This document shows positions 3,828 to 12,304 of a stretch of DNA of 64,000 bases, in pieces. This stretch comes from Thermomonas flagellata (GTDB taxonomy: Bacteria; Pseudomonadota; Gammaproteobacteria; Xanthomonadales; Xanthomonadaceae). The position numbers were made by a program, and so were the translations under genes. The notes beneath the pieces are model-generated. The model was not told the origin of the DNA and searched no databases. It worked only from the letters and a program-made list of their open reading frames with translations. Position 1 is the stretch's first letter. The number at the start of each line of letters is the position of its first letter. Where the stretch lies: NCBI RefSeq assembly GCF_022419185.1, contig NZ_JAJOZK010000001.1, positions 1-64,000 of the forward strand, given 5' to 3'.

Positions 3828-3849
3828 ACTGCCAGCCATGAGGGAGACC

Positions 3850-4728
<879 letters not shown>

Positions 4729-5795: not shown

Positions 5796-7982
<2,187 letters not shown>

Positions 7983-7994: not shown

Positions 7995-8093
7995 GACGGG
8001 TGCGGCGCAGTGGCTGCGCTGCAGTTGCCGCCGCCAATTCAGGCGTTCTCCATGAAATTTCTGTAAGCCTCTGTCGTAAAAGGAGATCGCTGT

Positions 8094-8320
8094 TTATCCA
8101 CATCGCCTGTGGATAACACTGTGCATGGCCGGCGGCAGAACCCGCGCACGGCGCGCCGCCATGCGCCTGCCCGGGGCTTGGCGAAAAATCCGCCAGTTCG
8201 TTCAAATCATTGAAAATCAATGGGTTGCGTGTGAAACACGGGCGTCATGTGACATGAACGCAACGTGAAACCATGCGGATGACGCCGGGATGACGCCTGT
8301 GCACAACGCAGTTGTCCACA
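8094..8320. promoter_or_regulatory. DnaA-box cluster with IHF site in the priA intergenic region
   Basis: The gene-free stretch 7995-8419 holds two perfect DnaA boxes facing each other, TTATCCACA (8094-8102) and TGTGGATAA (8108-8116), with a 5-bp spacer. A second, weaker pair is TGTGCACAA (8298-8306) and TTGTCCACA (8312-8320), also with a 5-bp spacer. Between them lie an AT-rich part (8190-8222), a perfect match to the IHF consensus WATCAANNNNTTR (8215-8227), a 13-bp palindrome (8245-8257) flanked by GTTGCGT/ACGCAAC arms (8224-8230, 8258-8264), and a direct repeat GGATGACGCC (8277-8286, 8288-8297). dnaA, dnaN and gyrB are not nearby, so this is not the usual oriC setting. A datA- or DARS-like role is an inference. 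Confidence 0.6.
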
Positions 8321-8349: not shown

Positions 8350-8382
8350 TGCCCGCGCTGTCAAGCCGCGCCGCGGCAGGCG
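8350..8382. repeat. Intergenic motif shared with 27023-27056 (copy 1)
   Basis: A 19-nt identical core (TGCCCGCGCTGTCAAGCCG) is followed by a near-identical GC-rich stretch that aligns to the copy upstream of topA with one gap and one mismatch. Read on the minus strand the core contains TTGACA. Both copies are in intergenic DNA. Confidence 0.5.
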
Positions 8383-8402: not shown

Positions 8403-8423
8403 ATGCCCACGTACCTGCCATGA
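8403..8423 (+). CDS. Possible six-codon leader peptide overlapping the next gene
   Basis: ATG-CCC-ACG-TAC-CTG-CCA-TGA encodes MPTYLP. A TAGCAT hexamer (8392-8397) lies 5 nt before its ATG, matching the leaderless promoter spacing seen elsewhere in the window. Its stop overlaps the next ATG at 8420 as ATGA, so it could couple translation. It is so short that chance is a real alternative. Confidence 0.25.
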   Translation: MPTYLP

Positions 8424-9733
8424 CCGCCGCCCCGCCTTCCCACGCTGCCGCGGTGGCGGCCTTCCTGCGCGGCCAGCAGCGGCGGGCACAGGTGCTGGCC
8501 GCGGTCCAGGCCGGGACCGCCGAGGCCGCGGGCGCCAGCTTGGAGGCGGTCGCGCGGGTGTTCGCCGGCGAGGCCGCGGCGCGCCCGCTCGCGGACTGGC
8601 CGGTGCTGTACTGGCAGCTGCTGCTGGGCCTGCCGGCGATGCGGCACAGCGTGCCGGAGCCCGCCGCCTCGCCGCTGCCGGCGCTGAGCGCGCTGGCCCC
8701 GGGCGTGCGCGCGGCGGTGCTGCTGCAGCTCCTCGGCGGCCTCGACGAGGCCGGCATCGGCGCCGTGCTCGGGGTGCCGGCCCCGACCTGGCAGGACTGG
8801 ATCCGGAACGCCCTGCCGACCGCGGCCGACGGGCAGCCCGACGTGGCGGTCTGGCGCGCCTGGCAGGCGGCCCTGCGGCAGGCGCAGGAGGCCGCGGCGA
8901 CACCTCCCGCCCCGCCCCCGTCGGCGCCGGTTCCCGCAGCGGCGCCGGCGCACATGCGCCCCGCGGCCCGTGCAGGCGCGCGTCGGGGCTGGCGTCTGGC
9001 GGGTGCCGCGCTGCTACTGGCCGTGGCGGCCGCCGCGGCTTGGTGGTGGCTGGCCGCGCCGCGCGGCGGGATCGCGCGCACGCCGCTGCCGCCGGCGGAG
9101 GCGCCGAAGGCGCGCTATGCCGCGGACGATCCCGGATCGGAGCCCGACCGCGCCCTGCTCGAGGTGCCGTCCGAGCTGGCGCTGGCCGAACGCCTGCCGC
9201 TGCTGGCCTGGCTGGAGGCCAGCGAGGTGCCGCTGCCCGATGTGCCGGCGGCCGCACCGCCGACTGCCGCGGGACCGGCCTGGCAGGCGCGCGTGCAGGC
9301 CTGGCGCGCGCTGCCGCCGCTGGAACGCGCGCGCCGGCGGGCGGCGTGGGCGGCTTGGCAGGCACTGGACGCCGATGAGCGCATGCGCCTGCGGGCGCTG
9401 GCCGTTCGCTTCGATGCCCTGCCGCCGGCGCAGCAGCAGGCGCTGCGCGCCGGCTACGAACGCCAGCCGGCGGACGCGCGCGACGGCTGGTGGCTGGGCC
9501 CGCGGCTGGGCCGGGCGTGGCCGGCGATCGCGCCGCTGTTCGCCTACGTGGACGCCGGCGAGCGCGCGGCCTTGCGGGCCGCCCTGCAACAGGCCACCAC
9601 GGAGGAGCTGGCGGTGCTGGCGCGGCTGGCGCAGAGCACCGCCCCGGAGGCGCGCGCCGCCCTGCGCCGCGGCTGGCTGGCGCAGCCGCCCGCGCAGCGC
9701 GCGGCCTGGCTGCAGGCGCGGCTGCAGGGCTGA
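8420..9733 (+). CDS. Membrane protein joining a sigma region 4-like helix-turn-helix to a DUF3106-type domain
   Basis: A 437-residue protein. Residues about 90-132 (ALAPGVRAAVLLQLLGGLDE, then IGAVLGVPAPTWQDWIRN) resemble the helix-turn-helix of ECF sigma region 4.2. A Pro/Ala linker follows, then one membrane helix at about 191-213 (WRLAGAALLL onward, Trp-rich end). The rest would be periplasmic, and its last 140 residues have repeated W-x-LPP-x-ER/AQQQ segments typical of DUF3106. The order predicts DNA contact in the cytoplasm and a Trp/Leu-rich sensor outside. Start ATG 8420 is chosen because upstream codons are Arg-rich; it overlaps a six-codon leader. Function is unknown; the domain reading is mine. 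Confidence 0.7.
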   Translation: MTAAPPSHAAAVAAFLRGQQRRAQVLAAVQAGTAEAAGASLEAVARVFAGEAAARPLADWPVLYWQLLLGLPAMRHSVPEPAASPLPALSALAPGVRAAVLLQLLGGLDEAGIGAVLGVPAPTWQDWIRNALPTAADGQPDVAVWRAWQAALRQAQEAAATPPAPPPSAPVPAAAPAHMRPAARAGARRGWRLAGAALLLAVAAAAAWWWLAAPRGGIARTPLPPAEAPKARYAADDPGSEPDRALLEVPSELALAERLPLLAWLEASEVPLPDVPAAAPPTAAGPAWQARVQAWRALPPLERARRRAAWAAWQALDADERMRLRALAVRFDALPPAQQQALRAGYERQPADARDGWWLGPRLGRAWPAIAPLFAYVDAGERAALRAALQQATTEELAVLARLAQSTAPEARAALRRGWLAQPPAQRAAWLQARLQG

Positions 9734-9853: not shown

Positions 9854-12304
9854 ATGCCGCCTCGCACTTCGTTCCGCCGGCCCGCCCGCCGGCCGCTGGC
9901 CATCGCCCTGTCCCTGCTCGTACTGGCCGCGGCCGGCCCCGTATTCGCCGCCGACCGTCCCTGCGTGGACAGCAACGGCAACCCCACCGGGGCCTCGACC
10001 AACCAGGGCACGGAAGACACCGGCAGCGCCAACGGCGAGAACAGCACCTGCACCTCCACCTCCACCGCCTACGGCTGGAGGAACATCTCCAGCGGCACCT
10101 ACAGCAGCGCGTTCGGCTACTACAACACCGCCAGCAACTATGCCGGCAGCGCATTCGGCGTGTTCAACATCGCCAGCGGCACTTACAGCAATGCCTTCGG
10201 CTACCTCAACAATGCCAGCGGCGACGTCAGCGTCGCGATGGGCGTGATCAACCTCGCGAGCGGCGCGACCAGCAATGCCCTCGGCTATCGCAACACCGCC
10301 AGCGGAACCACCACCAGTGCGCTCGGCGTGGCGAACACCGCCAGCGGCGACGGCGGCAGCGCCGTCGGCCTGTCCAACACCGCCGGCGGGGTGAACAGCA
10401 GCGCCGTCGGCGCCGTCAACAGCGCGAACGGCAATTTCAGCAGCGCCTTCGGGTACCAGAACACGGCTGACGGCGCCTTCAGCAGCGCCGTCGGCGCGTT
10501 CAATGCATCCCCGGCCACGCTCAGCAATGCCTTCGGCCACGGCAACCTGGCCTACGACAACAGCAGCGTCGCGGTCGGCACCTACAGCCAGGCCGGCAGC
10601 GTCGACGGCGACCCGACCAACGCGCGCAACAGCGTCGCCGTCGGCACCTGGTTCGACGCCAACGGCAACGGCGCATTCGACTCCGGCAGTGATCGTCGCA
10701 ACACCGCCAGCGCGATATATGCCAGCGCATTCGGCGTCGGCAACAGCGCCAGCGGCTATGCCAGCAGCGCGTTCGGCTACCTCAACGTCGCCAGCGCCTT
10801 CGGCGCCAACGCCTTCGGCCACTACAACAACGCCAGCGGCTACGGCAGCAACGCGATCGGCTACCTGAACACCGCCAGCGGTTTCGGCAGCAGCGCGCTC
10901 GGCAATTTCAACAACGCCAGCGGGCAGGCGGCCAACGCGGTCGGCAACTTCACCATCGCCAGCGGCAACTACAGCAATGCCTTCGGCACCGAGGCGCAGG
11001 CGCTCAACACCGGCAGCACCGCCCTCGGCTACCTGGCGATCGCCGACCGCGACTACAGCGTGTCGATCGGCAGCACCGGCAACGAGCGCCAGCTGATCCA
11101 CGTCGCCGCCGGCACCGCCGACACCGACGCGGTGAACCTGGGTCAGATGAACGCGGCCATCAGCACCGCGGTCGGCGGCATCAGCACCTATGCGGGCTTT
11201 GCGATCACCGCTGACGGCGGCGCCACCCGCGCGACCATCGGCAGCGGCGATACCGTGCAGTTCCAGGCCGACGATGCGAACGGCAACCTCACCGTCACCC
11301 GCAGCGGCAACACGATCAGCTACGGCTTCAGCAGCGCGCCGACCTTCCTCGGGCTGACCGTCGGCGGCGGTGGCGGCAATTTCACCATCGTCAACAACAC
11401 CACCATCAACATGGGCGGCAACGTGGTGGGCAACGTGGGCAACGGCGTCGCCGCCACCGACGCGGTGAACAAGGGCCAGCTGGACACCGCGGTGGCCGGT
11501 GCCAACGCCAATGCCGCCAGCGCGCAGGCCACTGCCAACGCCGCTCTGGCCGCCGCCGGCACCGCGCAGGCCACTGCGGACGGCGCCGCCACCGCCGCCA
11601 GCAATGCGCAATCCACGGCCGACACCGCGCTGACCGCCGCCAACAATGCCCAGGCCTCCGCCGACGCGGCGCAGGCCACCGCCAACACCGCGCTGGCCGC
11701 GGCGAACAATGCCCAGGCCACCGCGGACACGGCGCTGAGCACGGCCAATGCCGCGCAATCCACCGCCAACACTGCACTCACCGCGGCGAACAATGCGCAG
11801 GCCACCGCGGACACGGCGCTGACCGCGGCGAACAACGCGGTGGGCACCGCCAATGCCTATACCGATGCCCGCGAAGCGGCGATCCGCACCGACATGGTGG
11901 CCGGCGATGCGGCCACCCTGGCCTCGGCCAAGAGCTACACCGACACCTCGTCGGCGCAGACGCTGGCGGCCTCCAAGGCCTATACCGATGCCAAGTTCGC
12001 CGCCTGGAACGACAGCTTCACCCAGTACCAGCAGCAGGTGGATCGCCGCTTCGCGCAGACCGACCGCCGCATCGACCGGATCGGCGCGATGGGCACGGCG
12101 ATGACCCAGATGGCGGTGAACGCGGCGATCGGCAACAGCCCGCGCGGGCGGGTGGCGATCGGCGTGGGCGCGCAGGGCGGCCAAGGCGCGGTGTCGATCG
12201 GCTACGGCGTGCGGATCGGCGAGCGCGGGTCGTTCTCGGCCGGCGTCAGCTTCGGCGGCAACGGCGAATCCTCGGCCGGCGCGGGCTTCGGCCTGGATCT
12301 CTGA
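9854..12304 (+). CDS. YadA-type trimeric autotransporter adhesin
   Basis: A surface adhesin expected to form a trimer anchored in the outer membrane. The 816-residue protein has a signal peptide (cut after about 33, VFAADRP), then a head of about 14-residue repeats of the type SGTYSNAFGYLNNA from about 70 to 400. It continues with a neck motif (DTDAVNLGQMNAA), a second one (ATDAVNKGQLD), an Ala/Asn/Thr coiled-coil stalk and a four-strand membrane anchor at about 745-816. The head is interrupted by a segment with FDANGNGAFDSG, which looks like a DxNxNG calcium loop. The last residue is Leu rather than the usual aromatic. Start ATG 9854 has CGGGAG about 8 nt upstream. It is a single-gene unit ending at a strong hairpin. 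Confidence 0.92.
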   Translation: MPPRTSFRRPARRPLAIALSLLVLAAAGPVFAADRPCVDSNGNPTGASTNQGTEDTGSANGENSTCTSTSTAYGWRNISSGTYSSAFGYYNTASNYAGSAFGVFNIASGTYSNAFGYLNNASGDVSVAMGVINLASGATSNALGYRNTASGTTTSALGVANTASGDGGSAVGLSNTAGGVNSSAVGAVNSANGNFSSAFGYQNTADGAFSSAVGAFNASPATLSNAFGHGNLAYDNSSVAVGTYSQAGSVDGDPTNARNSVAVGTWFDANGNGAFDSGSDRRNTASAIYASAFGVGNSASGYASSAFGYLNVASAFGANAFGHYNNASGYGSNAIGYLNTASGFGSSALGNFNNASGQAANAVGNFTIASGNYSNAFGTEAQALNTGSTALGYLAIADRDYSVSIGSTGNERQLIHVAAGTADTDAVNLGQMNAAISTAVGGISTYAGFAITADGGATRATIGSGDTVQFQADDANGNLTVTRSGNTISYGFSSAPTFLGLTVGGGGGNFTIVNNTTINMGGNVVGNVGNGVAATDAVNKGQLDTAVAGANANAASAQATANAALAAAGTAQATADGAATAASNAQSTADTALTAANNAQASADAAQATANTALAAANNAQATADTALSTANAAQSTANTALTAANNAQATADTALTAANNAVGTANAYTDAREAAIRTDMVAGDAATLASAKSYTDTSSAQTLAASKAYTDAKFAAWNDSFTQYQQQVDRRFAQTDRRIDRIGAMGTAMTQMAVNAAIGNSPRGRVAIGVGAQGGQGAVSIGYGVRIGERGSFSAGVSFGGNGESSAGAGFGLDL
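10050..11000 (+). repeat. 42-bp tandem repeats encoding the adhesin head
   Basis: About twenty degenerate copies of a 42-bp unit encode the 14-residue head repeat, with GCCAGCGGC/AACACCGCC words recurring. They are protein-coding repeats, not a CRISPR array: there are no unique spacers. Confidence 0.8.
11500..11860 (+). repeat. Repeats encoding the adhesin stalk
   Basis: Recurrent 42-bp and shorter units encode NNAQATADTALTAA-like 14-residue blocks of the coiled-coil stalk. Near-identical units could allow recombination that changes stalk length. Confidence 0.75.

Follow-up and report, generated by a model that had tools for sequence, protein, structure and literature searches.

The question raised by a group of DnaA boxes upstream of priA in Thermomonas flagellata is what DnaA does at this place. 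We analysed a stretch of 64,000 nucleotides (the window) and compared the element with related genomes and with the known DnaA-binding sites of E. coli. The element is probably a DARS2-type DnaA-reactivating site. Its sequence, spacing, conservation and gene content were observed directly; ADP release and reactivation of DnaA are inferred, with no biochemistry behind them.

DnaA boxes and flanking sites beside priA

The core of the element has three DnaA boxes at 8094-8128. Box I (8094-8102, + strand) is TTATCCACA, with eight positions invariant and one kept in 44 of the 46 aligned rows. It is followed by a 5-bp spacer (8103-8107), constant in length and variable in letters, and by box II (8108-8116), which is TTATCCACA on the - strand. 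Box III (8120-8128, - strand) lies 3 bp past box II and reads TGTGCATGG on the + strand (CCATGCACA); TGTG at its place was seen in 45/46 rows and matches the box III place of both E. coli DARS1 and DARS2. The window core thus reads TTATCCACA, 5 bp, TGTGGATAA, 3 bp, TGTGCATGG. Since the 46 rows (45 loci and the window) were picked for a pair with no more than 2 mismatches, the conservation of the pair is partly a matter of choice. Boxes I and II are the sole matches to TTWTNCACA in the whole 64 kb, against 0.10 expected; two matches were reached in 1 of 100 shuffles.

Three properties expected of a DARS were found here: the core is non-coding, it lies outside oriC, and it has three boxes with box I opposite to boxes II and III, spaced as in DARS1 and DARS2. 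On one side of it is priA (primosomal protein N', PriA; 5796-7982, - strand), with the start codon 111 bp from box I. On the other side is a divergent gene for a DUF3106 protein (8420-9733, + strand), with a sub-threshold match to sigma-70 region 4 near the N-terminus; such a neighbour was found by tblastn at 16 of 89 priA loci. Further out, the window codes for a sigma-70 family factor with matches to regions 1.2, 2 and 4 (3838-4728), presumably RpoH-like, and for a trimeric autotransporter adhesin-like protein with YadA stalk and head matches (9854-12304). A search against Rfam returned tRNA only.

An exact match to the IHF consensus, AATCAATGGGTTG, is located at 8215-8227 (+ strand), +121 from box I. 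It is accompanied by a second, inverted match with 1 mismatch (8203-8215) and overlapped by the AT-rich dyad ATTGAAAATCAAT (~8209-8221). A DARS2-type element is expected to have an IHF site on the side of box III, at a fixed distance; such a site is present, albeit as a consensus match only and about one helical turn from the E. coli distance. Between the core and the IHF match, near +86, there is a Fis-consensus-like place, GGCGAAAAATCCGCC (8180-8194), common in relatives and poor in the window: the A-tract and its GG and CC ends are kept, and the block is too degenerate to match the consensus within 1 mismatch, which we counted against the DARS2-type reading. A conserved fourth box, TTGTGCACA (TGTGCACAA on the + strand), is found at 8298-8306 on the - strand, +204 from box I, and a weak box, TTGTCCACA, at 8312-8320 on the + strand.

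The sequence-only reading had described two perfect boxes facing each other across 5 bp, a weaker pair at 8298 and 8312, and a perfect IHF match. The positions, strands and spacing of the first pair and the exactness of the IHF match were verified, while box III, a member of the same group, had gone unnoticed. Both boxes of the weaker pair do exist, in divergent orientation as opposed to the convergent boxes I and II. Only the left one is conserved, the right one showing no conservation in a 25-row alignment; hence, the second pair was rejected as a unit, and TTGTCCACA is probably outside the element.

No convincing -35 and -10 elements of a priA promoter were recognized by eye in the 25-row alignment; the priA side has conserved blocks, near -60, -41 and -30, that remain unexplained. 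Unexplained conserved blocks in the window (8033-8093, 8231-8238 and 8359-8366) include GTGAAACA right after the IHF match, TGTCAAGC beyond it, and those at about -60 and -30 relative to box I.

Conservation in the family and in the class

We observed the exact pair, with variable spacer letters, in 227 of 247 genomes of the source organism's family (its own included), mostly once per genome; the reversed control gave 0. Among the remaining 20 genomes, 13 had a core with 1-2 mismatches, which brings the total to 240/247. In the other seven no core was found within 2 mismatches, and two of these genomes (G005 and G151) are 99-100% complete, a result counted against the DARS2-type reading. All but one of the 44 family loci examined adjoin priA: 29 of the 30 fetched exact-pair loci, the exception (L116) lying on a contig that stops soon after the pair, and 14/14 near-match loci (13 genomes).

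From a PriA scan of named genomes, the best 80 of 577 loci were analysed. Upstream of priA, at a distance of up to 1.5 kb, 45 of these 80 loci have a pair with at most 1 total mismatch and exactly 5 bp between the boxes. They are L009-L049, L055 and L057, whose titles point mostly to Lysobacteraceae and Rhodanobacteraceae, as well as L067 and L086; groups were assigned by record title and counted by hand. With spacers of 0-19 bp permitted, 5 bp was the length in the best pair of each locus that had one. The element was found in 0/31 of the Pseudomonas priA loci among the best 80 of 577, which was counted against the DARS2-type reading. Also, no pair was seen upstream of priA in L074, L082, L084 and L087, the contig of the last one stopping short of the upstream region.

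The position of the flanking sites was determined in 67 rows that met the conditions on core and flank length (L009-L045, L048, L055, L057, L089-L118 and the window; L046, L047, L049, L067 and L086 were left out), of which 61 remained after dropping rows at least 85% identical. In 54/61 rows, an IHF consensus with at most 1 mismatch started between +120 and +123, counted from box I (shuffle maximum 3), and in 29/61 it was without mismatch (shuffle maximum 1); its absence from the expected place in 7/61 rows was counted against the DARS2-type reading. The Fis consensus with at most 1 mismatch started at +85 to +88 in 35/61 rows (shuffle maximum 13), and without mismatch in 15/61 (shuffle maximum 4). 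The fourth box, TGTGNACAA, at +202 to +215 was present in 51/52 rows of nearer relatives and in 6/15 others, with an approximate grouping. Over 26 rows, the core and priA were separated by 109-200 bp (sd 20.8), with an uncertainty of up to ~24 bp because the PriA match begins at one of residues 1-9. In three loci (L009, L026 and L153) the core is duplicated, each copy having its own IHF match (at most 1 mismatch) at +120 or +121, and the two core-plus-IHF modules, both upstream of priA, are separated by ~360-400 bp. Therefore, the core and the IHF site seem to move as a single module.

Beyond the family, a pattern fitting both E. coli cores was found in 184 of 369 genomes of Gammaproteobacteria, compared to 0 for the reversed control. 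In 185/369 genomes there was no exact core match anywhere, which counts against the DARS2-type reading. In a sample of the phylum, the pattern was detected in 81/398 genomes, 67/137 inside the class and 14/261 outside it (hand count). A PriA search was run on 80 of the 103 core-bearing class genomes among the matches listed, all of them outside the family; priA scored above the cut-off in 77, and the core was just upstream of priA in 29/80 (18/45 families), with one orientation in all 29. Among 30 loci fetched across the class, 9 had the core at priA and 21 had it not within 1.5 kb of priA. No matches to DnaA, DnaN, RecF, RpmH, UvrB, MutH, MraZ or DnaB were detected in the flanks (up to 1.5 kb) of these 30 loci.

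For 29 of the 30 loci (L147 was too short and was excluded), an IHF match at +119 to +121 was present in 15 cores (11/21 non-priA and 4/8 priA; shuffle maximum 2) and lacking there in 14, the latter being counted against the DARS2-type reading. In 22/29 cores there was a Fis-like site starting between +84 and +89 (shuffle maximum 6). The offset windows used here were set after the earlier offset results had been seen. A few other cores had IHF at +97, +109 or +131; these steps of about one helical turn were spotted post hoc.

Other DnaA boxes, DnaA-cycle proteins and competing explanations

Genome-wide, TTATCCACA has 5 matches compared to 4 in the reversed control; therefore, the count of the 9-mer alone is not unusual. 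The five are the window pair and one each upstream of dnaA, dnaB and mraZ, the last two genes being named from their translated starts. The box before dnaB is on the + strand (L005 1501-1509, C8:13986-13994; L200-L229 in relatives). Among 30 loci of 29 family genomes, 27 had a box with at most 1 mismatch within 400 bp upstream of dnaB, 21 of them perfect; the first 400 coding bases, used as a control, had a box in 0/30. The box before mraZ, the first gene of the division cluster, is mostly at ~-190 on the - strand (L007 1501-1509, C15:109096-109104; L171-L199) and was found in 20/29 family loci (13 perfect; control 0/29). Judged from sequence, the dnaA, dnaB, mraZ and priA boxes together look like a small DnaA regulon. 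Because boxes are also upstream of dnaB and mraZ, DnaA may act at such sites mainly as a transcription regulator, a point counted against the DARS2-type reading.

The genome encodes the proteins of the DnaA cycle. Its DnaA is 53% identical to that of E. coli, and residues D269, R285 and L290, as read from the alignment, are kept, while AID-1 R227 aligns with Q, which we counted against the DARS2-type reading. Thus, of the residues implicated in ADP release, D269 (DARS1) and L290 and R227 (DARS2), the first two are retained and the third is changed to Q. In E. coli, R227 is important at DARS2 (PMC4245941). Hda (36% identical to E. coli) and Fis are encoded in the organism's own genome, and IhfA and IhfB scored over the NCBIfam cut-offs on the matched stretches.

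If the E. coli biochemistry holds here, ADP-DnaA produced by Hda-dependent hydrolysis after initiation would bind boxes I and II, with the AAA+ domains of the two molecules head to head. Such contact of DnaA molecules bound at boxes I and II is described in PMC8682772. IHF, perhaps with Fis, would bend the DNA so that the distal part contacts the core; ADP would leave, and apo-DnaA would drop off and take up ATP. The level of ATP-DnaA would then climb towards the next round at oriC.

What else could the boxes be? That they are a chance cluster is hardly credible. The lone 9-mer is indeed not rare, as its count against the reversed control tells, but the pair occurs in 227/247 family genomes, mostly once each, with a variable spacer, and never in the control; the sequence-only reading had asked for boxes kept across relatives, and this is what was found. 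A second or true replication origin, which DnaA boxes, an IHF match, AT-rich DNA and a shallow cumulative-skew low ~4 kb off could favour, is very improbable. An origin should adjoin dnaA, and dnaA lies on another contig (C13) of the 2.52 Mb, 15-contig assembly, with dnaN- and rpmH-like genes beside it (by reading of translations rather than by search). In six single-contig relatives, out of 12 in which dnaA was looked for, 265-652 kb separate the pair from dnaA, or 7.3-12.0% of the rounded genome size; priA was seen beside the pair in the two of the six that were fetched (L090 and L092). Being 7-12% of the chromosome away from dnaA, the pair would be copied soon after initiation; simple arithmetic on fetched coordinates puts E. 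coli DARS2 at ~20% and DARS1 at ~34%. The flanks of the 30 class-wide loci, without DnaA, DnaN, RecF or RpmH, argue against an origin too, and the GC skew of the window is weak, its cumulative curve having a shallow low near 12 kb that carries no weight either way. The oriC reading was rejected, and the earlier claim of a site distinct from oriC, to be refuted by dnaA lying here, stood. A datA-like site that lowers free ATP-DnaA by titration or ATP hydrolysis is also improbable, if somewhat less so. It would be in line with the perfect boxes, the IHF match and the fair proximity to dnaA in relatives; on the other hand, there are only three to four boxes, and a head-to-head pair at 5 bp with box III at 3 bp is the layout of DARS. 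Judged by layout alone, the datA reading was rejected. From the initial description of the locus as 'datA- or DARS-like', the DARS half survived, supported by the spacing and orientation of the three boxes and by the IHF match, rigidly spaced, on the side of box III; for the datA half the layout gave no support.

A promoter controlled by DnaA and IHF, at which DnaA would turn priA (or the divergent gene) up or down and so link restart capacity to the DnaA cycle, is an unlikely reading. It draws on the adjacency to priA in 29/30 exact-pair and 14/14 near-match family loci and in 29/80 other gammaproteobacterial genomes, there in a single orientation, and on the family's boxes before dnaB (27/30) and mraZ (20/29). 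However, the distance from the core to IHF is nearly fixed, whereas that to priA ranges over 109-200 bp; three relatives carry the core and IHF duplicated 360-400 bp further off; 21/30 class-wide cores have no priA within 1.5 kb, and 11/21 of those keep IHF at +119 to +121. A plain promoter would have no need of the three-box DARS geometry either. Regulation of priA by the same boxes alongside a DARS role is possible and not excluded; DARS1 and DARS2 themselves lie in the promoter regions of uvrB and mutH (PMC5835720).

The distribution across the class suggests that the DnaA-recharging way of timing replication is widespread, with the function itself inferred. One may go further and suppose that the core, the Fis-like site at ~+86 and the IHF site at ~+120 form an ancestral class-wide reactivating module, most commonly housed in the priA promoter region, from which E. 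coli DARS1 and DARS2 were derived and relocated; this we offer tentatively, with chances that we would put a little short of even. If true, its place beside priA would tie DnaA recharging to the restart of replication. With the core in 184/369 class genomes and 240/247 family genomes, the generality of DnaA recharging becomes directly testable; natural variants show which spacings matter, and the matches give a list of candidate sites for work beyond E. coli.

Comparison with known DnaA-binding sites

In the fetched E. coli stretch, at the place that we take to be datA, no three-box core with 5/3 spacings was among the neighbouring pairs listed. A short box query against E. coli genomes (blastn) gave no match and was too uninformative to be weighed. 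Unlike a DARS, datA promotes ATP hydrolysis, through an IHF-bent complex, and not ADP release. It is similar to the element in having DnaA boxes and an IHF site outside oriC (PMC5742627).

Titles and abstract openings of open-licence literature contained no report of DARS in Xanthomonas or Lysobacter (Lysobacterales) or at priA. Within what was searched of that literature, the known DARS are those of E. coli, its near relatives and Vibrio, and a location at priA is new there. The sites of V. cholerae and of E. coli-like species are of the same kind as the element; in contrast to it, they are reported at the uvrB and mutH positions of E. coli (PMC6090056, PMC5010248 and PMC4245941).

In E. coli K-12, the fetched stretches, with neighbouring boxes listed, gave the core TTATCCACT-5-TGTGGATAA-3-TGTGTATTA at the uvrB place (DARS1) and TTATTCACC-5-TGTGGATAG-3-TGTGAAGAA at the mutH place (DARS2). 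PMC5742627 likewise reports equal box spacing at the two sites, with box I opposite to boxes II and III; according to PMC5835720, they sit in the uvrB and mutH promoter regions. DARS1 has the same three-box core, with boxes I and II nearly perfect. It differs in the gene (uvrB) and in lacking, between +20 and +260, any IHF match with at most 1 mismatch.

The comparison with DARS2 goes further in both directions. E. coli DARS2 sits at mutH and the element here at priA, so the element is not at the position expected of a DARS2 ortholog, nor was MutH found in the flanks of the 30 class-wide loci. Boxes I and II are perfect in the window, another difference. The activity of E. coli DARS2 needs IBS1-2 and FBS2-3 and is cut by a 5- or 10-bp shift of IBS (PMC4245941). 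We found IHF matches there at +93 and +109 (IBS2 starts at +109), and the Fis consensus is matched perfectly at +145. With IHF at +121, the element has it about one helical turn further out. The Fis sites (FBS2-3) are beyond IHF in DARS2, while the Fis-like site here is between the core and IHF, which we counted against the DARS2-type reading. What the two have in common is the three-box core with its 5/3 bp spacings and orientations, IHF on the box III side, and a further DnaA box ~210 bp from box I.
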